A stretch of 64,000 bases of DNA from Streptomyces aquilus (GTDB taxonomy: Bacteria > Actinomycetota > Actinomycetes > Streptomycetales > Streptomycetaceae): NCBI RefSeq assembly GCF_003955715.1, contig NZ_CP034463.1, positions 124,001 to 188,000 on the forward strand, given 5' to 3'. The translations under genes were made by a program, and so were the position numbers. Below the pieces are notes generated by a model. It was not told the DNA's origin and did no database searches. It saw only the letters and a program-made list of their open reading frames with translations. This document shows, in pieces, positions 1 through 55,617 of the stretch. Positions within the stretch are counted from its first letter, which is position 1, and every line of letters starts with the position of its first letter.

Positions 1-269
1 CCGGAGGCCCGCTCACCCGGGGGCCCAAGCGCTGGGACCTGGAGCGCCAGGTGCGGCTCATCGCCGGAGTTCTCGTCCTGGTGACCGGCGTCGCGGGCCT
101 GTTCGTGCCCGGACTCCATCTGATCGGCACGGCAGCCGGCGCGGGACTCACCATCGCCGCGCTCACCAACACCTGCGCCATCGGCATGCTGCTGTCGAAG
201 CTGCCCTACAACCGCGGCCCGCGCACCGACCTCGACACCGTCGTCACCGCCCTACGAGGCACGACATGA
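1..269 (+). CDS. Rhodanese-DUF2892 protein, C-terminal part (5' end outside window)
   Basis: The reading frame is open to the left edge, so the start lies outside the window. The visible part matches the C-terminal half of the complete rhodanese-DUF2892 protein at 48672-49259. Both have an RQVR motif, then two hydrophobic segments, then a TNTC or TDTC motif followed by a KLPYNR or KLPHNR motif. The DUF2892 part is a two-helix membrane anchor, which in this family holds a rhodanese domain at the membrane for sulfane-sulfur transfer. The stop overlaps the start of the TauE/SafE exporter gene by four bases (ATGA), so the two are probably co-translated. A rhodanese domain upstream is inferred from the paralogue, not seen. 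Confidence 0.75.
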   Translation, partial: GGPLTRGPKRWDLERQVRLIAGVLVLVTGVAGLFVPGLHLIGTAAGAGLTIAALTNTCAIGMLLSKLPYNRGPRTDLDTVVTALRGTT

Positions 270-1243
270 TCGCCGTCGTCATCGCCGCGTCCCTGCTCAT
301 CGGCGTCAGTCTCGGCGTACTGGGCGGCGGCGGGTCCATCCTGACCGTGCCCATCCTGGTCTACCTGGCCGGAATGGAGACCAAGCAGGCCATCGCCACC
401 TCGCTGTTCGTCGTCGGCGTCACCAGCGCCGCCGGAGTCGTCTCGCACGCCCGCGCCGGACGCGTCCGCTGGCGCACCGGGCTGCTGTTCGGTCTGGCCG
501 GCATGACCGGCGCCTACGCGGGCGGACGGCTCGCCGCGTTCATCCCCGGCGGCGTCCTGCTCGTCGCCTTCACCCTCATGATGATCGCCACCGCCGTCAC
601 CATGATCCGTGGTCGCCGCCAGGCGCCGAAGAAGGCCCACCACGAACTGCCAGTCCCGCATGTCCTGCTCGACGGCATCGTCGTGGGACTGGTCACCGGG
701 CTGGTCGGCGCCGGTGGCGGCTTCCTCGTCGTTCCCGCGCTCGCCCTGCTCGGCGGGCTGCCGATGACCGTCGCGGTCGGCACCTCACTGCTGGTCATCT
801 CCATGAAGTCCTTCGCCGGGCTGGCGGGATACCTCGCGAGCGTGCACATCGACTGGGGCTTCGCCGCCCTCGTCACCGCGACCGCCGTCGTCGGCAGCCT
901 CATCGGCGGCCTGCTCGCCGGGCGCATCCCGCAGGACGCGCTGCGCAAGTCCTTCGGCTGGTTCGTCGCCGTCATGGGCGTCTTCGTCCTCACCCAGCAG
1001 GCCGACGCCGGCCTCCGCCACACCCTGCTGACCAGCCCCTGGACCTGGGTTTCCACGGCCGCGGCGGCGGGGATCGCCGTCAGCCGGTACATGCTCGGAC
1101 GCTCCGGACGAACACCGGCGCGGGGAAGGGCGAACGACGCCCCGGACGCGTCGGCCGACGAACCCGAACCCGTGGTCTCGCTCACCGTCCGTGCCGAGAC
1201 CGTACGCGGCAACGGCACCACCGCGTCGCCGCAGGACGCCTAG
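266..1243 (+). CDS. TauE/SafE-family sulfur-anion exporter
   Basis: A 325-residue membrane protein of the sulfite exporter TauE/SafE family, which moves small sulfur compounds such as sulfite or sulfoacetate across the inner membrane. The sequence shows the duplicated layout of the family. Glycine-rich GGGGS near residue 20 and GAGGG near residue 150 each open a block of about four membrane helices. Roughly the last 45 residues form a charged cytoplasmic tail. Its ATG lies inside the stop of the rhodanese-DUF2892 gene, indicating a two-gene unit. A second, shorter TauE/SafE gene (248 residues) lies at 49648-50394 next to a second rhodanese-DUF2892 gene, so the pair occurs twice in this window. 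The actual substrate cannot be read from sequence. Confidence 0.9.
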   Translation: MIAVVIAASLLIGVSLGVLGGGGSILTVPILVYLAGMETKQAIATSLFVVGVTSAAGVVSHARAGRVRWRTGLLFGLAGMTGAYAGGRLAAFIPGGVLLVAFTLMMIATAVTMIRGRRQAPKKAHHELPVPHVLLDGIVVGLVTGLVGAGGGFLVVPALALLGGLPMTVAVGTSLLVISMKSFAGLAGYLASVHIDWGFAALVTATAVVGSLIGGLLAGRIPQDALRKSFGWFVAVMGVFVLTQQADAGLRHTLLTSPWTWVSTAAAAGIAVSRYMLGRSGRTPARGRANDAPDASADEPEPVVSLTVRAETVRGNGTTASPQDA

Positions 1244-43082: not shown

Positions 43083-43102
43083 CAGTACCCATGCGGGTAC
43101 TG
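43083..43102. promoter_or_regulatory. Perfect palindrome, probable TetR operator between divergent genes
   Basis: CAGTACCC-ATGC-GGGTACTG, 8-bp arms, with related half-sites on both sides (ACGGTACAGTAC before, CTAGTACTGT after). It lies midway between the hydrolase and TetR starts. Its core GTACCC-N4-GGGTAC also resembles the sulfur-regulon palindrome further right in the window, but the extended symmetry and position fit the TetR protein better. Confidence 0.7.
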
Positions 43103-45314: not shown

Positions 45315-45792
45315 GCGCTCAACCGGGCGCACGCCGTCAGACGGCCGCCCTCGAAGCGTTCCAGCACGTCGCGCAGACCGACGGCGCCGGGCAGGTCGTA
45401 GAAGGGGAAGACCTTCTCGCCCCAGCCGGGGCCGGTCAGCCCTTCGGTCTCCTCCGGCAGCAGCCTGGCCCCGGTGGCGACCACGAGGACGTCGTACGTC
45501 AGCCGGGTGTCACCGGTGAGGTGCCACGGTCCGCGCGTCCAGGTCGACCCGGTCGATCCGCGCCTGCTTGTCGTCGACGGCCGCGTCCAGCTGCCGGGGA
45601 CGGGAACGCAGCAGGTGATGCGGCTGGGGCCAGTCCGAACGGCGCGAACAGCAGGCCGGGCAGGTAGAGGTGATCGTCGTCCTGGTCGACCACGGTGATC
45701 CGGTGCCCGCTCTGGCCGTGTGTGCGACACAGTCGGTTCGCCGTCATGGTGCCGGCCGTTCCGCCACCGAGAATCACGAGGTGTTTGCCCAT
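45315..45792 (-). pseudogene. Sulfide:quinone-oxidoreductase-like flavoprotein, frameshifted and truncated
   Basis: The ATG at 45792 opens with KHLVILGGGTAGTMTANRL, the FAD-binding GxGxxG turn, then ITVVDQDDDHLYLPGLLFAP, typical of SQR-like NAD(P)/FAD oxidoreductases. After that the frame shifts at least once. Recognisable pieces follow in other frames (QARIDRVDLDARTV; YDVLVVATGARLLPEETEGL; GWGEKVFPFYDLPGAVGLRD), ending at about RFEGGRL. The second half of the enzyme, including the expected redox cysteines, is missing. In sulfur-detoxification regulons SQR converts sulfide to sulfane sulfur. Here it is dead although CstR-type operators remain upstream. Confidence 0.8.
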
Positions 45793-45850: not shown

Positions 45851-45866
45851 GTACCCACCCGGGTAT
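45851..45866. promoter_or_regulatory. CstR-type operator, copy 1
   Basis: GTACCC-ACCC-GGGTAT. First of six copies of the pattern (A/G/T)TACCC-N4-GGGTAT in 6.4 kb. It lies 59 bp upstream of the SQR-like remnant's start and about 200 bp upstream of the OsmC gene on the other strand. Confidence 0.75.
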
Positions 45867-45926
45867 GCCCTCCCCCGGGCCCCTCGGCCCCAGGATCCAT
45901 GTGCCTGCCATGACCGCCCTGATAAA

Positions 45927-45942
45927 ATACCCAGCAGGGTAT
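45927..45942. promoter_or_regulatory. CstR-type operator, copy 2
   Basis: ATACCC-AGCA-GGGTAT, inside an AT-rich patch (GATAAAATAC) between the SQR-like remnant and the OsmC gene. It is the better placed of the two sites to control the plus-strand OsmC/PLP-enzyme operon. Confidence 0.8.
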
Positions 45943-46066
45943 AGCGCCGCACCATTGGGCACGTGGGCCGAACGGCCCCCGGCGCGCCCCGTCGGCCCCT
46001 CGCCCCGTCCCGCGCTCAGCGGTCGACTGGAGTCCGGAGCAGACGACACCAGAGAGGGGCCCGGCC

Positions 46067-46519
46067 ATGACCGGCAGCACACCTCAGACCCTCGGTACGA
46101 GCCACCCCCAGTCCGTGGACGTGCATCGCCTGGAGGTCGTTCACGTCGAAGGCGACGCATACACCGTGGACGTCCGCGAACACCACCTCGATGTCGACCA
46201 GCCCCTGGAGGCGGGCGGCACGGACACCGCACCCACCCCCACCGAACTCTTGGCGGCCTCCCTGGCCACCTGCGTGGCGTTCTACGCGGGCCGCTACCTC
46301 CACCGGCACGGTCTGCCCCAAGCCGGCCTGCGCGTCCGCACCGAGTTCACCATGGCACCCGACCGCCCGGCCCGGGTCGCTTTCCTGCGCCTCGTCGTCG
46401 TGCCGCCGCCGGAACTGCCCGAGCAGCGGCGCGCGGCCCTGCTGGCCGTCGCCTCGCGCTGCACGGTCCACAACACCCTCCACCAGCCGCCCGAGATCGA
46501 CATCGAGCTGACGCCATGA
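46067..46519 (+). CDS. OsmC-family protein
   Basis: A 150-residue OsmC/Ohr-fold protein. The central helix TPTELLAASLATCVAFYAG carries the first conserved cysteine and SRCTVHNTLHQPP the second. In OsmC/Ohr enzymes such a pair reduces organic hydroperoxides, and some relatives in sulfur operons are thought to act on persulfides. The gene is flanked upstream by CstR-type operators and overlaps the PLP-enzyme gene (ATGA), so it belongs to the sulfur regulon. A role in handling persulfides is inferred from context. Confidence 0.88.
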   Translation: MTGSTPQTLGTSHPQSVDVHRLEVVHVEGDAYTVDVREHHLDVDQPLEAGGTDTAPTPTELLAASLATCVAFYAGRYLHRHGLPQAGLRVRTEFTMAPDRPARVAFLRLVVVPPPELPEQRRAALLAVASRCTVHNTLHQPPEIDIELTP

Positions 46520-48210
46520 GGACGACCTCGGCGCCGACCGTGCCGGCGCTCCTGGATCGCATCAGAGGCGGCCTCATCGGCGACGACGAGGTCCTGGAGG
46601 GCCCCTACGGCCCGAACCGGATCGTCTACGCCGACTACACCGCATCCGGACGCTCCCTGGACTGCGTCGAGGACTTCGTGCGCGAGCAGGTGCTGCCGCG
46701 CTACGGCAACACCCACACCGAAAGCTCCAGCACCGGGCTGCAGACCACCCGGCTGCGCGAGGACGCTCGCCGGATCATCCGGGACGCGGTCGGCGGCACC
46801 GAGCGCGATCTGGTGATCTTCTGCGGCTCCGGGGCCACCGCGGCGGTCAACAAGCTGGTCGGCATCCTTGAGCTGCGCCGTCCGGACCGGCCGGCGCCGG
46901 ACGAGCGGCCGGTGGTGTTCGTGGGTCCGTACGAGCACCACTCCAACGAGCTGCCCTGGCGCGAGTCCATCGCCGAGGTCGTGGTCATCGACGAGGACGC
47001 CGACGGCCACATCGACCTCACCGAACTCGAAGCGGGGCTACGGCGGTACGCGGACCGGCCGCTGCTGATCGGCAGCTTCTCCGCCGCGTCCAACGTCACC
47101 GGCATCCTGACCGACACCGACCGCATCGCGCGCCTGCTGCACGCGTATGGCGCGCTGTCCTTCTGGGACTACGCGGCGGCGGCACCGTACGTCCCGATCC
47201 GGGTGGCCGAGAGCTCGCCGGGGGCCGGGGACCACAAGGACGCGCTGTTCCTGTCCCCGCACAAGTTCGTCGGCGGTCCGCAGACCCCGGGGGTGCTGGT
47301 CGTCCGGCGCGAGCTGGTGCGCAACCGGGTGCCCACCGCGCCCGGCGGCGGCACGGTCGCCTTCGTCGACCCGTTCGGCCACCGTTATCTCGACGACCCG
47401 GTGGCCCGGGAGGAGGGCGGCACCCCCGCGATCGTGGAGTCCATCCGGGCCGGACTGGTCTTCGCCCTCAAGCAGGCGGTGGGAACCGAGACCATCCAGG
47501 CCGCGGAGGAACGCCACTGGCGGCGCGCGCTCGCGGTCTGGGAGGGCAATCGCGGCATCGAGATCCTCGGCGACCATCACGCCCGCCGGCTGTCCATCGT
47601 CTCTTTCCGGATCCGCTACGGAGAGCACGCCTATCTGCACCACCACTACGTCGTGGCCCTGCTCAACGACCTCTTCGGCATCCAGGCCCGGGGCGGCTGC
47701 TCCTGCGCGGGCCCTTACGGCCACCGCCTGCTCGCGATCGACGCCCCCACTTCCCACGCCCTGCTCGACGAGGTCGTGCACGGGTGCGACGGCATCAAGC
47801 CCGGCTGGGCCCGCGTCAACTTCAACTACTTCATCAGTGACACCGTCCGTGATTACCTCATCGACGCCGTCGGCCTGATCGCCACCCATGGACATCGGCT
47901 GCTGTCCGACTACCGCTTCGACCCGCACACCGGGCAGTGGCGCCATCACAGCGGCCCCGCCGACGCTCCTCTGCGGCTGACCGACGTCCGCTTCGGCGCC
48001 GACGGGCGGATCTCCGCTTTGGCTGCCCGCCATCGCCGACTGGGCGAAGAGGCGCTGGCCGGTCAACTCGCCCGTGCCCGCGCGGTACTGGCCACTCGTC
48101 CCGACCGGCTCGACGACGGCCCCACCGGGCTGCCGGCCGACTTCGAGCGCATGCGCTGGTTCCCGCTCCCGCCCGCCTGCGTGGAACAAACCCGCACCGG
48201 CAGCGGTTGA
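46516..48210 (+). CDS. Class V aminotransferase-fold PLP enzyme (cysteine-desulfurase-like)
   Basis: A 564-residue PLP enzyme. The N-terminal part has YADYTASGRSLDCVEDFV and the NTHTESSSTG block of class V lyases. The phosphate-binding region is IFCGSGATAAVNKL, the Schiff-base lysine lies in LSPHKFVGGPQTPG, and a cysteine-bearing loop GIQARGGCSCAGPYGHRLL corresponds to the catalytic-Cys region of desulfurases. About 90 extra residues follow the usual end. The ATG overlaps the OsmC stop. It may take sulfur from cysteine or a related donor, or transfer sulfane sulfur. The exact reaction is not known to me. Confidence 0.87.
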   Translation: MRTTSAPTVPALLDRIRGGLIGDDEVLEGPYGPNRIVYADYTASGRSLDCVEDFVREQVLPRYGNTHTESSSTGLQTTRLREDARRIIRDAVGGTERDLVIFCGSGATAAVNKLVGILELRRPDRPAPDERPVVFVGPYEHHSNELPWRESIAEVVVIDEDADGHIDLTELEAGLRRYADRPLLIGSFSAASNVTGILTDTDRIARLLHAYGALSFWDYAAAAPYVPIRVAESSPGAGDHKDALFLSPHKFVGGPQTPGVLVVRRELVRNRVPTAPGGGTVAFVDPFGHRYLDDPVAREEGGTPAIVESIRAGLVFALKQAVGTETIQAAEERHWRRALAVWEGNRGIEILGDHHARRLSIVSFRIRYGEHAYLHHHYVVALLNDLFGIQARGGCSCAGPYGHRLLAIDAPTSHALLDEVVHGCDGIKPGWARVNFNYFISDTVRDYLIDAVGLIATHGHRLLSDYRFDPHTGQWRHHSGPADAPLRLTDVRFGADGRISALAARHRRLGEEALAGQLARARAVLATRPDRLDDGPTGLPADFERMRWFPLPPACVEQTRTGSG

Positions 48211-48225
48211 ACCGAGCAGACGCAG

Positions 48226-48241
48226 ATACCCCACCGGGTAT
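48226..48241. promoter_or_regulatory. CstR-type operator, copy 3
   Basis: ATACCC-CACC-GGGTAT, between the PLP-enzyme stop and the thioredoxin start, immediately before the GGAGTGGAGGG ribosome-binding region. It suggests an internal sulfur-controlled promoter for the thioredoxin gene. Confidence 0.8.
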
Positions 48242-48261
48242 ACAGGAGTGGAGGGAAACCC

Positions 48262-48633
48262 ATGCCGACCGTCGAACTGACCAAGGACAACTTCGAGGAG
48301 ACCGTCACCGGCTCCGACATCCTGCTGATCGACTTCTGGGCCGCCTGGTGCGGACCGTGCCGGATGTTCGGCCCCGTCTATGACAAGGCGTCCGAGCGCC
48401 ACCCGGACATCGTCTTCGGCAAGGTCGACACCGAGGCGCAGCCCGAACTCGCCGGCGCCTTCCGGATCTCGTCCATCCCCACCCTGATGGCCGTCCGCGA
48501 CCGGACCGTCCTGTACTCGCAGCCCGGCGCACTACCGCCGCAGGCGCTGGAGGAACTCATCGGGAAGATCCGCGCCGTCGACATGGGCGACGTGCGCCGG
48601 AAGGCCGCCGCGGGCTCTGCGGAGGCGAGCTGA
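48262..48633 (+). CDS. Thioredoxin
   Basis: A 123-residue thioredoxin with the active site WAAWCGPCRMF (Cys30 and Cys33), the usual RISSIPTLMAVRD cis-proline block and a short C-terminal extension. It reduces disulfides and, in this setting, probably persulfides on rhodaneses, OsmC or the PLP enzyme. GGAGTGGAGGG precedes the ATG, and a CstR-type operator sits just upstream. It converges with the rhodanese-DUF2892 gene. Confidence 0.93.
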   Translation: MPTVELTKDNFEETVTGSDILLIDFWAAWCGPCRMFGPVYDKASERHPDIVFGKVDTEAQPELAGAFRISSIPTLMAVRDRTVLYSQPGALPPQALEELIGKIRAVDMGDVRRKAAAGSAEAS

Positions 48634-48671
48634 CGCCCGGGAAGTATGAAGGGCGCCCCGGAACGTCGGTG

Positions 48672-49259
48672 TCAGCGACTGCGAAGAGCGGCGAGCGCGG
48701 CGTCGAGGTCGGCCGCGCGCGGGCGGTTGTGCGGCAGCTTGCCGAGCACGACCGCCATGCCGCAGGTGTCGGTGAGAGCGGAGAAGACCAGCCCGCCCGC
48801 GACTCCGGCCGAGATCAGCAGGAGGGCCGGATGCAGGAGCAGGCCGAGGACGAGACCGAGGAGCACCAGGGCGCCGGCCGCGAACCGGACTTGGCGTTCC
48901 ATGCTCCAGCCGGAACGGGTGTCACAGGCCGCCGGTGTGTGCAGATCGTGCCCCTCGGCAGCCCAGGCTCCGGTGCCGCCGGCGAGGGTCGCCGTGGTGA
49001 CGCCCTGCTCGGCCAGCAGCTTGCAGGCGTTCTCCGAGCGGGCGCCCGAGGCACACACGACGAGTACGTCGCCCTGGCCGGCCGCGTGCCGTATCTCCGG
49101 CAGCGCCCGCCGGACGTGGTCCAGGGGGATGTTGAGGGCGCCGGGCAGATGGCCCGAGGCGTACTCGGCGGGCGTGCGCACGTCGATGACGGTCAGCTCG
49201 TGCAGCCGCGTGCGGGCCTGGTCCGTGCCGAGGGCGACGGGAGCGGGGGTGTTGGTCAT
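48672..49259 (-). CDS. Rhodanese-DUF2892 membrane-anchored sulfurtransferase
   Basis: A 195-residue protein. An N-terminal rhodanese domain (LTVIDVRTPAEYASGHLPGA; active loop VVCASGARSEN with the persulfide-carrying Cys) is followed by a DUF2892 part with two hydrophobic segments and the TDTCGMAVVLGKLPHNRP motif. It moves sulfane sulfur, probably at the membrane. It is divergent from the CstR-type gene across one operator, so the sensor likely represses this gene and itself together. It is a paralogue of the partial gene at the left edge. Confidence 0.92.
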   Translation of the reverse strand: MTNTPAPVALGTDQARTRLHELTVIDVRTPAEYASGHLPGALNIPLDHVRRALPEIRHAAGQGDVLVVCASGARSENACKLLAEQGVTTATLAGGTGAWAAEGHDLHTPAACDTRSGWSMERQVRFAAGALVLLGLVLGLLLHPALLLISAGVAGGLVFSALTDTCGMAVVLGKLPHNRPRAADLDAALAALRSR

Positions 49260-49277
49260 GACAGATGTGATCCTTAA

Positions 49278-49628
<351 letters not shown>

Positions 49629-49647
49629 TCGCGCATCCGGCACCCCC

Positions 49648-50394
49648 TCAGACCAGCGCGTCGATCAGCATGAAGGCCGCCACGGCCAGCAGCACCAGTG
49701 CGAAGATCCGCTGCAGCGCTCGCCCGGAGACCTTCACGGCCAGCCGCTTGCCATCCCAGGCACCGAGGATCGCGGCCCCGACGAACGGGCCGACCACCGC
49801 CCAGTCCAGCGTCTCGACCGTGCCGGCCCGGGTCGACAGTGCGGCCAGCGAGTTGACGGTGATGACCAGCAGGCTGGTGCCCACCGCATCCCGCATCCGC
49901 ATGCCCAGCACCCCCACCAGTGCCGGTACGGCGAGGAAGCCGCCGCCGACACCCAGGACACCGGTGACCGTACCGAGGCCGGCACCGGCCGCAGCCGCCC
50001 GCCCCGGCCGTACCGTCACAACGCCCTCCGCGGCCGGCCCGGACCGCAGCATGCGTACGGCGGCCGCTCCCGCGACCACGCCGAACGCGGCCGTGAGCAC
50101 GCCCGCCGGGACGCGTCCGGCGAGCGCGCCGCCCAGCATCGCCGGGCCGATCCCGGCCGCCGCGAACAGCAGCCCGGTACGCCAGCTCACGTGCTCGTCG
50201 CGGGCGTGCGCGACCAGCGCGGTGACCGAGGTGAGCGTGACGATGACCAGACTCGCGGTCGTCGCCCCGACCGGGCTGAAGCCGAGCAGGTAGATCAGCG
50301 CCGGGACGGCCAGGACACTGCCGCCGCCCCCGAGCGCACCGAGCGCCAGACCGATCACGGCCCCGGCGCCCAGGGCGAGCAGGAGAGCGCTCAC
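49648..50394 (-). CDS. TauE/SafE-family exporter
   Basis: A 248-residue membrane protein with the two-fold repeat of the family (GALGGGGSVLAVPALIYLLG and GVLGVGGGFLAVPALVGVLG) and about eight helices. It probably exports sulfite or thiosulfate made by sulfane-sulfur oxidation. The GTG at 50394 overlaps the rhodanese stop (GTGA), so it is the last gene of the unit MBL-rhodanese, rhodanese, TauE. It converges with the sensor gene, separated by 19 bp. Confidence 0.9.
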   Translation of the reverse strand: MSALLLALGAGAVIGLALGALGGGGSVLAVPALIYLLGFSPVGATTASLVIVTLTSVTALVAHARDEHVSWRTGLLFAAAGIGPAMLGGALAGRVPAGVLTAAFGVVAGAAAVRMLRSGPAAEGVVTVRPGRAAAAGAGLGTVTGVLGVGGGFLAVPALVGVLGMRMRDAVGTSLLVITVNSLAALSTRAGTVETLDWAVVGPFVGAAILGAWDGKRLAVKVSGRALQRIFALVLLAVAAFMLIDALV

Positions 50395-50777
50395 GCGACC
50401 GTGCCGTTCCGACCATCCGCGTCGACCACCGGCAAACCCGCCTTGGCCCACTCCCGCATCCCGCCGACCACGTCGACGGCCTCCGAGCCGCGGGCGACGA
50501 GCAGTTCGGTGGCCTGCCGGGAGCGGTTGCCGGAGCGGCAGATCACGATCAGGGGCCGCGCCTGCGCTGGTGCGGGCAGCCCCGCCCCGGCGGCCAGCGC
50601 CGACAGGGACAGGTGCACGGCGCGCGGCGCATGGCCCGCCTGCCACTCGTAGGGCTCACGCACGTCCAGCAGTACGGCGTCACCGCCGCCGTCGGCGTTG
50701 TCGTGCCCGGTGCGCGCGGCTGCCTCCTGCACACTTACGCGCCCCGGGCCGCTGCGGGCCCGTCGGAAGATGCTCAT
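50391..50777 (-). CDS. Single-domain rhodanese
   Basis: A 128-residue rhodanese: AVLLDVREPYEWQAGHAPRA, then the active loop VICRSGNRSRQA with Cys80 as persulfide carrier, and VDVVGGMREWAKAGLPV near the end. There is no signal peptide. It lies 69 bp downstream of the MBL-rhodanese gene and overlaps the TauE gene, fitting the sulfide/persulfide detoxification operon. It would shuttle sulfane sulfur between the dioxygenase-type enzyme and acceptors. Confidence 0.92.
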   Translation of the reverse strand: MSIFRRARSGPGRVSVQEAAARTGHDNADGGGDAVLLDVREPYEWQAGHAPRAVHLSLSALAAGAGLPAPAQARPLIVICRSGNRSRQATELLVARGSEAVDVVGGMREWAKAGLPVVDADGRNGTVA

Positions 50778-50846
50778 CTCGGTTTCTGGCTCCTGTTCGT
50801 CACGTCGTCAGGGAAGATCGGCAGGCCCCCGCGGCGGCCTGCGCCG

Positions 50847-52202
50847 TCAGGGGGTCCGCAGGACGAGTCCCGCCTTCTCGGCCGCGTCGAAGGAGTCGTC
50901 CACGGCGACGACGTCACGGCCTGAGGCGTCCAGCAGGGAGGCGGCGATCGCGGCGCGCATCCCGCCCGCGCAGTGCACCCACACCTGCCCGTCGGGAACC
51001 TCGTCGAGACGGCGGTGCAAGGTGTGGACCGGGATGTGCACCGAGCCCTCGACATATCCGTCGGCCCGCTCCGACGTCCGGCGCACGTCCAGGACGACGA
51101 CGTCCGCGCCCCGTTCCGCAAGGTCGGCGAAGGTGCCCCTCCGGAAGGCGGCCGGCGCCTCGCCCTCGCGCACCCAGTCGGCCGGGCCGCCCGTGGCCGC
51201 GGCGGCGGGGCGGTCGATACCCACCCGGACCAGCTCCCGCTGCGCGGCGGCGAGTTGCGCGGGCGACTCGGCGAGCAGCGTGACCGGCTTGCCCCATGGG
51301 ATCAACCAGGCCAGATACGTGGCGAGCTGCCCCTCCGCCTCGAAGTTGAAGGACCCGGAGACGTGCCCGGCGGCAAACGCGACCCGGTTGCGCAGATCGA
51401 CCACCCACTCCCCCGCGTCCAGCCGCTCGGCGATCTCGTCGCCGTCCGCGACGGCGGGCGGGGTCAGGTCGACGGGCGCGGGTCCGGCAGCGTTGGCCGG
51501 GCCCATGTGCGTGTAGTAGGCGGGCACGTCGTCCAGGCCTGCCAGCAGATCGGCGACGAAGCTGTCGACGTCCCGGGTGAGCGCCTCGTTGGACACCTTC
51601 TCCTTGCCGATGGTCGTGTCGCTGCCCTCGGCCTGGGAGGACGAGCAGAAGCTGCCGAAGCCGTGCGTGGGCAGTACGGCGGTGTCGTCCGGGAGTTCGG
51701 CGGCCAGCCGGTGTGCGGACGCGTGCTGGGCACGGGCCAGCCGCTCCGTCAGCCGCGGCTCGACCAGGTCGGGCCGGCCGACGCTGCCGATGAGCAGGGA
51801 CCCGCCAGTGAACACGGCGACCGCCGCGCCGTCCGCCTCCAGTACGTAGGAGGTGTGGTGCGGGGTGTGACCGGGGGTGGCCAGCGCGCGCAGCGCCAGG
51901 CCGCTGTCCAGGGCCGTGACATCACCGTCGCGCACAGGTGTCCGCTCGAACGACACCCGCGCCCCGGCCGGCACGAGGTAGTCCGCGCCCGCGATCCGGG
52001 CGAGCTCCAGGCCGCCGGTGACGTAGTCGTTGTGCACGTGCGTCTCGACCACGTGCGAGATCCGTACCCCGCGCCGTGCGGCCGCCGCGATCACCTGATC
52101 GACGTCGCGGGGCGGGTCGACCGCGACGGCCGTCCGCTCACCGCCGGCGAGATAACCACGGTTGCCGAGCCCGGACACCTCGATCGTGTCGACGAAGAAC
52201 AC
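50847..52202 (-). CDS. MBL-fold / double-rhodanese protein (persulfide-dioxygenase type)
   Basis: A 451-residue fusion. The N-terminal metallo-beta-lactamase domain has THVHNDYVTGG near residue 55 (HxHxD with Tyr where many family members have His), TPGHTPHHTSYVLEA, and LLIGSVGRPDLV, as in ETHE1/CstB-like persulfide dioxygenases. Two rhodanese domains follow. The first (VVDLRNRVAFAAGHVSGS) lacks a catalytic Cys; the second has HCAGGMRAAIAASLL with one. It should oxidise a persulfide to sulfite and transfer sulfur. Two tandem CstR-type operators lie 25 and 60 bp upstream, so it is probably strongly induced by sulfane sulfur. Confidence 0.92.
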   Translation of the reverse strand: MFFVDTIEVSGLGNRGYLAGGERTAVAVDPPRDVDQVIAAAARRGVRISHVVETHVHNDYVTGGLELARIAGADYLVPAGARVSFERTPVRDGDVTALDSGLALRALATPGHTPHHTSYVLEADGAAVAVFTGGSLLIGSVGRPDLVEPRLTERLARAQHASAHRLAAELPDDTAVLPTHGFGSFCSSSQAEGSDTTIGKEKVSNEALTRDVDSFVADLLAGLDDVPAYYTHMGPANAAGPAPVDLTPPAVADGDEIAERLDAGEWVVDLRNRVAFAAGHVSGSFNFEAEGQLATYLAWLIPWGKPVTLLAESPAQLAAAQRELVRVGIDRPAAAATGGPADWVREGEAPAAFRRGTFADLAERGADVVVLDVRRTSERADGYVEGSVHIPVHTLHRRLDEVPDGQVWVHCAGGMRAAIAASLLDASGRDVVAVDDSFDAAEKAGLVLRTP

Positions 52203-52226
52203 GCTGTGCTCCCTTCCAGTGAAGAA

Positions 52227-52242
52227 TTACCCCGGGGGGTAT
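52227..52242. promoter_or_regulatory. CstR-type operator, copy 5
   Basis: TTACCC-CGGG-GGGTAT, 25 bp upstream of the MBL-rhodanese start. With the sixth copy 35 bp away it forms a tandem pair serving the divergent MBL-rhodanese operon and the DUF302 remnant. Confidence 0.82.
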
Positions 52243-52261
52243 GTTTTCGACGGTAGCACAA

Positions 52262-52277
52262 GTACCCCGGGGGGTAT
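52262..52277. promoter_or_regulatory. CstR-type operator, copy 6
   Basis: GTACCC-CGGG-GGGTAT, nearly identical to the fifth copy and on the same helical face (35-bp centre-to-centre distance). It lies about 100 bp before the DUF302-like start on the plus strand. Confidence 0.82.
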
Positions 52278-52377: not shown

Positions 52378-52518
52378 ATGCGCTACGACCGCACAGTCCG
52401 CCTCGACACCGACTTCGCCACCCGTGAGGCCGGCGTCCTTGCGCAGGTGCGTCAGGCGCACGGCGAGCGCTTCACGGGCTGCCTGAGCGCTGGAGGAAGG
52501 AGAGGCGGGCCTGGGTGA
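52378..52518 (+). pseudogene. DUF302-like gene reduced to its N-terminus
   Basis: The ATG at 52378 opens with MRYDRTVRLDTDFAT, the usual beginning of actinomycete DUF302 proteins, but after about 15 residues the sequence changes to unrelated REAGVLAQVRQAHGERFTG and stops after 46 codons. DUF302 proteins are about 125-130 residues long and occur in sulfur and CsoR-type operons. The upstream tandem operator suggests the lost gene was part of this regulon. Confidence 0.5.
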
Positions 52519-54143: not shown

Positions 54144-54808
54144 ACGGTGAGCACACCGCATTCGCTCGGTCTTCGCTCACCTTCATCCAGCCTCCTCCTG
54201 CTCGCCGGATGCGTCCCAACGGGCCTGGTCTCCTGTTCAGCCACCCCTTATGAAACCGTGCCCGGCCTGGCCGCGCCCTACGTCCGGCGCTGGGAGATCG
54301 AGTCCGGCACATCAGACCTGTGCCACCTGCCCGGCCGCGTCCGCAGGCCCCGCCTGCCGCGTTCACGCAGGACACCCAGCACCGTTGCGGCGCACTGCAT
54401 TTCGCATACCTCCCGGTCTTCGGGTGTCCGAACCACCTGGCCCCCTTCGCCCTGCGGACGGCTTTCCCGCCCTCCCTGGCCGGACGTTGCTCCGGCGACT
54501 ACTACGGGGCCTCCGTCGCCATAGGACTCGCGTCCCGTAGGCGATCCCACGTTCGTCTCTGTTGTACGTCATAGCGCGACGTAGGCGTCCCACTCATCTC
54601 CTTGAATACCCTCGCTGGGCATCGCCCCGCGCTCCGGAGGTGCACCGGCCAACTATAGAAACCTGAACCTGGTGCAGAACGCGGTGCCGGTTACAGCTGC
54701 CTTTCCGGCGGATGGGAAATTGCATCTGCTGGAGATTGGGCTTCAAACAATTCAGTCTTCGCCATATCGCGCGGGCCACCCAGCGCACCGTCCCTGACAA
54801 CTGGGCCC
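54144..54808. other. 665-bp stretch of unassigned DNA left of an IS3 element
   Basis: No intact gene. A plus-strand piece at about 54245-54300 reads VPGLAAPYVRRWEIES, similar to the YHxRWEIE motif around the catalytic Glu of IS4-type transposases, but it is too short to be sure. The part from 54590 to 54800 is lower in GC than its surroundings, hinting at foreign origin. No structured RNA was recognised. Confidence 0.4.
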
Positions 54809-54848
54809 TGAGCTGCCCCGAGTTTCGTAGAGTCCGATCTTGATTGGT

Positions 54849-55617
54849 TCAGGCGGACTGCGGGGTTTGCTCCTGGCTGCGCCAGAAGGCTTCCTCGTAC
54901 TCGGCCGGCGGCACGTAGTCGAGCGCGGAGTGAAGACGTTCTTCGTTGTACCAGGTGATCCACTGGAAGATCGCCCGCTCGACCTGGTCGACGTCCTTCC
55001 CCGGTATACCGAATTGATACGTATTGCGACCCGCGATCGCTGTGGTGTATCAGTCCGGAGTCCTTCTTGATCCGGCGCCGCCAGAGCGCCATCTCCAGGG
55101 CTTCCAGAGGGAGTTCGGTCCGCATGTGGTTCGCGACCTGCCAGCCGACTATCATCCGCGAGTACACATCCAGAACGAACGCCACATACGCCCATCCCGA
55201 CCAGGTGCGGACATACGTCATGTCCGCCACCCACAACTGATCGGGCCGGGAGGCGGTGAAGTCGCGGTCGACCAAGTCCGGCGGACGCGGCGCCGACGGT
55301 TCCGGAATCGTGGTCCGACGCCGCCGGCCACGGATGACGCCCTCCAGGCCCAGTTCGGCCATCAGCCTCTCGACGGTGCAGCGGGCCACCCCGTGGCCCT
55401 TGCGCCGAAGCGCGCGGGTGATCCGGCGGGCGCCATAGGTGCCGCCCGACTCCGCGTGGACCTCCTCGATCAGCGGCATGAGCTGCTCGTTCCGGAGCCG
55501 GCGGGCCGACTTCGGCCGCTTCTTGCGAGCGAAGTACGTCGACGTCGACGGCGACAGCTCCAGCACCCGGCAGACGGGATCGACCCCAAGGCCCCTCTCG
55601 CGCAGGTGGTCGATCAC
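54849..55617 (-). pseudogene. IS3 transposase OrfB with internal deletion
   Basis: It starts with IDHLRERGLGVDPVCRVLEL and has the HTH_21 segment, the catalytic VADMTYVRTWSGWAYVAFVL and the second-Asp block LIHHSDRGSQYVSIRYT. The stretch carrying the catalytic Glu (normally a GDSYDNALAE-like motif) is then missing, and the end continues in another frame (DQVERAIFQWITWYNEERLH, PPAEYEEAFWRSQEQ). The deletion junction lies near 55015. Loss of the DDE glutamate makes it inactive. Confidence 0.85.

Follow-up and report, generated by a model that had tools for sequence, protein, structure and literature searches.

The locus described here is very probably an enlarged version of the ScCsoR/CstR sulfane-sulfur regulon of Streptomyces. 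It lies in the window, a 64,000-nt stretch of the Streptomyces aquilus chromosome (10.39 Mb, one contig, C1 below). A regulon of this kind is already known; judged by homology and conservation, the one in S. aquilus would have the same function and is larger and more scattered than that published for S. coelicolor. Beyond the published circuit, the same predicted operator core precedes a type III sulfide:quinone reductase (SQR), an OsmC-like protein with a SufS-like PLP enzyme, and a thioredoxin. The features of the locus, in window coordinates, are:

45332..45792, minus strand: broken type III SQR gene, located with the intact paralog (C1:968312-969550) as tblastn query
45851..45866, no strand: predicted operator GTACCCACCCGGGTAT, ~60 bp before the start of the broken SQR gene (45792)
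45927..45942, no strand: predicted operator ATACCCAGCAGGGTAT, ~125 bp before OsmC
46067..46519, plus strand: OsmC-like protein, 150 aa (PF02566)
46516..48210, plus strand: class V aminotransferase / SufS-like cysteine desulfurase homologue (the PLP enzyme), 564 aa (PF00266)
48226..48241, no strand: predicted operator ATACCCCACCGGGTAT, 20 bp before thioredoxin
48262..48633, plus strand: thioredoxin (WCGPC), 123 aa (PF00085)
48672..49259, minus strand: rhodanese with a YgaP-like membrane domain (rhodanese-TM), 195 aa (PF00581 and PF11127)
49309..49324, no strand: predicted operator GTACCCCTAGGGGTAT, between the divergent CstR (plus) and rhodanese-TM (minus) genes
49341..49628, plus strand: CstR/ScCsoR-type repressor, 95 aa, GTG start at 49341 (PF02583)
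49648..50394, minus strand: TauE/SafE sulfite exporter (PF01925)
50391..50777, minus strand: rhodanese, 128 aa (PF00581)
50847..52202, minus strand: MBL-rhodanese fusion, putative type III persulfide dioxygenase (PDO), 451 aa (PF00753 and PF00581)
52227..52242, no strand: predicted PDO-proximal operator TTACCCCGGGGGGTAT, 26 bp before the PDO start
52262..52277, no strand: predicted PDO-distal operator GTACCCCGGGGGGTAT, 61 bp before the PDO start and 35 bp beyond the proximal site
52378..52518, plus strand: DUF302 gene remnant, ~15 native residues followed by unrelated sequence

An earlier note on this DNA had placed sites of the form (A/G/T)TACCC-N4-GGGTAT at these six operator positions, and we found every one of them there. 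It had also assigned the sites to gene starts, which holds for thioredoxin, OsmC (at ~125 bp), the sensor with its divergent rhodanese, and the PDO, but the first and last assignments had to be corrected. The site at 45851, given to OsmC, instead faces the broken minus-strand SQR gene, which had been missed; those at 52227 and 52262 are paired sites of the PDO unit, and their proposed link to DUF302 is positional only. From its placement, the operator at 49309 can serve both CstR and rhodanese-TM. The PDO gene, as the first gene, the rhodanese gene and the TauE gene likely form one unit, read leftwards from the paired sites. The ATACC-n6-GGTAT-type core of the ScCsoR operator is present at the sensor's own promoter and at the pdo and rhod promoters; both end bases are matched in two of the six sites, and G or T replaces the first-base A in four. 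When up to one mismatch was allowed, TACCC-N4-GGGTA occurred seven times in the window, each time exactly, versus a mean of 0.65 in shuffled windows, and 0 of 100 shuffles reached seven. The seventh core, GTACCCATGCGGGTAC at 43085-43100, ends in C and therefore falls outside the pattern of the earlier note. It lies within a longer palindrome between the gene for an AefR-like TetR regulator (43145, plus strand) and an alpha/beta hydrolase gene (minus strand); it is therefore probably a TetR operator, and we consider it unlikely to be a CstR site.

The sensor is a member of PF02583 (85.8 bits; cut-off 22.8). Cys37 and Cys66 are its only cysteines, equivalent to those of ScCsoR and identically numbered (PMC7533328), and Gly62 occupies the position of the metal-ligand histidine. 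All three residues, together with a total of exactly two cysteines, were found in 80 of 80 relatives (the best 80 of at least 536), which bears out the two-cysteine, no-histidine CstR pattern recognized earlier. These residues bear on the alternative of a copper-sensing CsoR with the sites as its copper operators. Copper CsoR shares the family PF02583, the ScCsoR site is itself reported to resemble CsoR and RicR sites (PMC7533328), and the best NCBIfam match of the window sensor is RicR, below the cut-off (47 vs 175 bits). However, Gly62 replaces the ligand histidine in the window protein and in all of these relatives, so that the Cys-His-Cys pattern is missing. The only other PF02583 match in the genome, a RicR/CsoR-like protein at C1:5144377, does have the Cys-His-Cys pattern of copper CsoR and fits RicR far better (140.4 bits, also below the cut-off of 175), and the operator-linked proteins scanned included no copper-related family. 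On the residues and on this separate protein we rejected the copper identity, which we regard as extremely improbable. From the residues, the operator, the target genes and the conservation of the operator we infer that the window sensor is of the CstR type, a well supported assignment that upholds the earlier proposal of a CstR-type reactive-sulfur regulon.

Among the genes of the locus, the 564-aa PLP enzyme, whose gene overlaps the OsmC gene by 4 bp, and the SQR remains were both absent from the earlier note. What is left of the broken SQR gene matches residues 1-54, 56-89 and 97-153 of the 413 of SQR, spread over three frames, and tblastn with the intact paralog found no SQR homology beyond residue 153. 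The PF11127 membrane domain of rhodanese-TM is presumably what had been called DUF2892. The domain make-up of the PDO is that of ScPDO (PMC7533328). The DUF302 remnant noticed previously is real, in that Pfam finds DUF302 at the equivalent place in a relative locus (L016) and an ORF with the same MRYDRT start is present there in 9 of the 38 rows compared. About 2 kb to the right of the remnant lies a transposase-like ORF (54691-55617, minus strand; rve and HTH_21 domains), which we take to be of the IS3 type.

The earlier note had asked for a genome-wide motif scan, which yielded four more exact cores at sulfur loci outside the window. The genome contains 16 exact TACCC-N4-GGGTA cores versus 9 for the reversed pattern, and three sulfur loci account for 10 of the 16, with six cores in the window, three in a second cluster and one at C1:969609. 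The second cluster, consisting of rhodanese and SQR genes followed by PDO, rhodanese-TM and TauE genes, begins 3.6 kb to the left of the window, and its tail forms window positions 1-1243:

1..269, plus strand: 3' end of the second-cluster rhodanese-TM gene (C1:123688-124269)
266..1243, plus strand: second-cluster TauE (PF01925)

The cores of this cluster, at C1:120408, 120464 and 122178 (spanning C1:120408-122193), are all to the left of the window. Compared with their window counterparts, its PDO is 34% and its rhodanese-TM 42% identical, and its SQR shares 32% identity with that of the 969-kb locus; the cluster is therefore not a recent duplicate. Directly before it are a response regulator gene and a HAMP histidine kinase gene (L003:6255-8427; C1:118255-120427), the 3' end of the latter being overlapped by the first operator of the cluster. 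The YrkD cluster of B. licheniformis likewise has a two-component system, NreBC (PMC9918477).

In the 969-kb locus, an intact type III SQR gene (C1:968312-969550) faces a gene for an OsmC protein 71% identical to that of the window. At C1:969609, the intact SQR gene is preceded by a predicted operator with the same 16 bases as GTACCCACCCGGGTAT before the broken one. The intact SQR scores 551.4 bits against NF049943 (cut-off 525), in keeping with a type III SQR; the name of this model refers to a selenoprotein subtype, but the SQR frame contains no internal stop.

The remaining six of the 16 exact cores are found away from the sulfur loci. As regulon members we rejected those at 227205, 4433940 and 5346026, all inside predicted ORFs, and that at 7520319, between two ORFs that we recognized as presumably rpsO and pnp. 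The core at 4199907 (TACCCCCAAGGGTA, C1:4199906-4199921; L005:3907), upstream of an ORF that looks to us like a universal stress protein, was likewise rejected. The same 14-mer was found in six other genomes among the matches listed, of which G013, G093, G114, G115 and G119 are outside the 119 CstR-positive genomes described below; this core is possibly a conserved site of another regulator.

The conservation of the operator was followed in related loci. A contig scan gave at least 592 matching stretches, at least 536 of which encode a CstR relative, and the best 80 loci, chosen by similarity to the window CstR, were kept (1.458 Mb). In these best 80 of at least 536 loci we counted 244 exact TACCC-N4-GGGTA cores versus none of the mirrored control; 218 of the 244 are no more than 200 bp away from the start of a query gene type, and 26 were assigned to no gene. 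Among the loci that contain the start of the respective gene, a core precedes CstR in 77/80, PDO in 41/41, rhodanese-TM in 48/54, SQR in 8/8, OsmC in 7/9, thioredoxin in 11/12, Rhod2 in 7/7 and PDO2 in 9/10 (with a PDO2 query missing a few N-terminal residues). Within units, the inner genes seldom have one: TauE 2/22, Rhod 3/36, PLP enzyme 1/10, SQR2 1/8 and RhodTM2 0/6, with TauE2 left out of the counts. Many cores before first genes and few before inner genes is the contrast predicted by an operator role, in rows that are not independent because the 80 loci were picked by CstR similarity and their genes are mutual neighbors. No other query gene was near CstR in 19 of the 80 loci. Exact cores were missing in 3/80 cases for CstR, 6/54 for rhodanese-TM, 2/9 for OsmC, 1/12 for thioredoxin and 1/10 for PDO2; the three CstR cases (L050, L076 and L091) have degenerate forms. 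The two commonest distances of the PDO-assigned sites (n = 82) are 26 bp (22 sites) and 61 bp (18 sites), as in the window, while the thioredoxin sites lie 22-23 bp upstream in 10 of 11 cases and the SQR sites 58-59 bp upstream in 8 of 13. The site is clearly set off from its flanks in 13 thioredoxin promoters and less clearly in the CstR, PDO and PDO2 promoters, where unequal promoter lengths account for at least part of the difference.

We also surveyed 199 Streptomyces genomes, counting a genome as CstR-positive when it had a relative with E <= 1e-20. CstR relatives are present in 119 of them, some at only 60-70% identity. With kinship ignored, exact cores average 8.13 per genome in those with a CstR relative (n = 119) versus 3.90 in those without (n = 80), and the reversed-pattern control hardly differs (7.41 vs 7.04). 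Since the reversed pattern outnumbers the pattern itself in the CstR-lacking genomes, it cannot serve as an exact background. Given the shortness of the core, the 6 of 16 that lie elsewhere in S. aquilus and the average of 3.90 in CstR-lacking genomes, a lone core proves nothing for an individual site. The additions to the published circuit are rare in this sample: with S. aquilus counted, the PLP enzyme was found in 8 of the 199 genomes (one copy interrupted by stops and one partial) and type III SQR in 10. A core precedes the type III SQR gene in 9 of these 10 genomes, L109 being the exception with none. In G104, G080 and S. aquilus, the core-preceded SQR gene is at least 0.8 Mb away from the only CstR match listed.

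These data bear on how far the regulon extends, since CstR could control only PDO, TauE, CstR and rhodanese-TM, with the SQR/OsmC and thioredoxin sites belonging to another regulator or being relics. Those four are the only targets shown in S. coelicolor (as described in PMC7533328), the window SQR gene is broken and the OsmC site is ~125 bp upstream. Against this, the same core recurs at conserved distances before thioredoxin and SQR genes, and SQR genes remote from CstR still have cores before them. We consider a CstR restricted to the four published targets improbable and favor the enlarged regulon.

The sites, their conservation, the residues of the sensor and the gene families can be read from the DNA itself; for the binding of CstR to such sites and its release by persulfidation we draw on the S. 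coelicolor work (PMC7533328). There, ScCsoR (SCO0620) has the operator ATACC-n6-GGTAT, the residues Cys37 and Cys66, and the targets pdo, tauE, csoR and rhod; its DNA binding is released by polysulfide, both cysteines are needed, and persulfidation of Cys37 frees it from DNA (PMC7533328). By analogy, reduced CstR of S. aquilus would occupy ATACCC-N4-GGGTAT-like palindromes near start codons, thereby repressing itself, rhodanese-TM, PDO-rhodanese-TauE, thioredoxin and the OsmC-PLP enzyme pair, as well as the rhodanese-SQR / PDO-rhodanese-TauE cluster left of the window and the 969-kb SQR/OsmC pair; we infer that it acts on all ten sites. A rise in persulfide or polysulfide would lead to persulfidation of Cys37 (with Cys66) and take CstR off the DNA. 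SQR would convert sulfide to persulfide, the rhodaneses and thioredoxin would move sulfane sulfur, PDO would oxidize it to sulfite, and TauE would export the sulfite; the order of this pathway and the parts played by OsmC, the PLP enzyme and thioredoxin are presumed.

The S. aquilus regulon resembles the ScCsoR circuit (PMC7533328) in its CsoR-family Cys37/Cys66 sensor, operator type, two sites before pdo, site between csoR and rhod, pdo-tauE unit and predicted autoregulation. The published circuit, similar in 16 strains examined more closely, has four genes at one locus, and its lack of SQR is stressed; the discussion of that paper sets a sulfane-sulfur circuit, with an autoregulated repressor and no SQR, against SQR-containing circuits (PMC7533328). 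In contrast, S. aquilus, judged by its sequence, adds SQR, OsmC, the PLP enzyme, thioredoxin, an extra rhodanese and a second PDO/SQR/TauE cluster, distributed over three chromosomal loci. Because SQR here carries the same operator, the line between sulfane-sulfur and sulfide-oxidizing circuits (SQR and PDO) is blurred.

The cst genes of S. aureus form a single operon, and the earlier note was right that the present regulon is wider than the staphylococcal one. However, a Streptomyces ScCsoR with the same operator type was already published (PMC7533328), and the YrkD cluster already includes thioredoxin, SQR and PDO (PMC9918477). In B. licheniformis MW3, the CstR-type repressor YrkD likewise stands over rhodanese, PDO, TauE, thioredoxin and SQR, but in a single 11-gene cluster in which NreBC amplifies sqr-pdo, and the gene list given there has neither OsmC nor a class V aminotransferase (PMC9918477). 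CstR of S. aureus and Enterococcus faecalis is also a two-cysteine CsoR-family persulfide sensor over sulfurtransferases, in E. faecalis within a single operon with RhdA, RhdB and CoAPR (PMC9405070); CstR forms sulfur bridges between its cysteines, whereas ScCsoR is reported with Cys37-SSH only (PMC7533328). Thermus thermophilus TTHA1953 is similar as a CsoR-family repressor that uses cysteine chemistry and has a sulfur regulon located apart from its own gene, with a thioredoxin (SoxW) among the members, but it differs in its DNA motif and in controlling Sox genes (PMC10318464). The titles and abstracts of the open-licence literature searched gave no description of the extended Streptomyces regulon. 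This regulon offers concrete, testable targets for a sulfur sensor that is already known, in bacteria that produce antibiotics; higher actinorhodin production and faster sporulation in response to sulfane sulfur are reported for such bacteria (PMC7533328).

The PLP enzyme resembles SufS-type cysteine desulfurases over residues 21-404 (PDB matches), while its score against TIGR01979 (SufS) is 121.1 bits, below the cut-off of 475.1. H142, D218, K250, C395 and C397 are invariant in 24 aligned sequences, that of the window included. K250 and C397, which we take to be the PLP lysine and the catalytic-position cysteine, correspond in position to the HK and HCA motifs of SufS-type chains, and C397 sits in an invariant GGCSCAGP; in the DGAQ stretch, the glutamine of 8d8s is alanine in the window enzyme. 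A C-terminal extension of ~150 residues follows, and the predicted structure is of low confidence (mean pLDDT 46.7, pTM 0.47). One in-frame TGA was reported in eight PLP-enzyme matches, and from inspection of three of these eight loci we rejected a selenoprotein: the stops of L126 and L130 align at 560 and 556, the natural C-terminal end, and L131 has no stop inside the aligned 8-556.

Of 246 genomes surveyed across the class, 72 contain the family, two of these being Streptomyces. A TACC-N6-GGTA site was absent from the flanks (~1.5 kb or less) of 28 PLP-enzyme loci from outside Streptomyces, and we rejected a link to CstR at these loci. The link thus appears to be particular to Streptomyces, and the OsmC-PLP operon looks like a Streptomyces recruitment. 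Outside Streptomyces, an OsmC piece is found near the PLP enzyme in L135 and a thioredoxin in L133; in the latter (L133:225-2888), the PLP-enzyme relative is followed by DUF3039 and then by a thioredoxin 59% identical to that of the window, hinting at a PLP-thioredoxin link without CstR.

Among the papers listed in searches of the open-licence literature, we found none tying this cysteine-desulfurase-like enzyme to persulfide stress. As a speculative extension that we consider rather doubtful, a minority of Streptomyces might have placed SQR under CstR to give a full sulfide-to-sulfite circuit, together with an inducible OsmC/SufS-like PLP/thioredoxin relay. The PLP enzyme of this relay would not supply Fe-S clusters but take sulfane sulfur off cysteine persulfide or polysulfide and pass it to thioredoxin, which would release sulfide to SQR and PDO.

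Among plasmid records, 446 of 72,556 matched CsoR-family relatives of the window sensor, 24 of them from Streptomyces; one example is NZ_CP108841.1 (H1), and the best plasmid relative, from Streptomyces chartreusis, is 82% identical.
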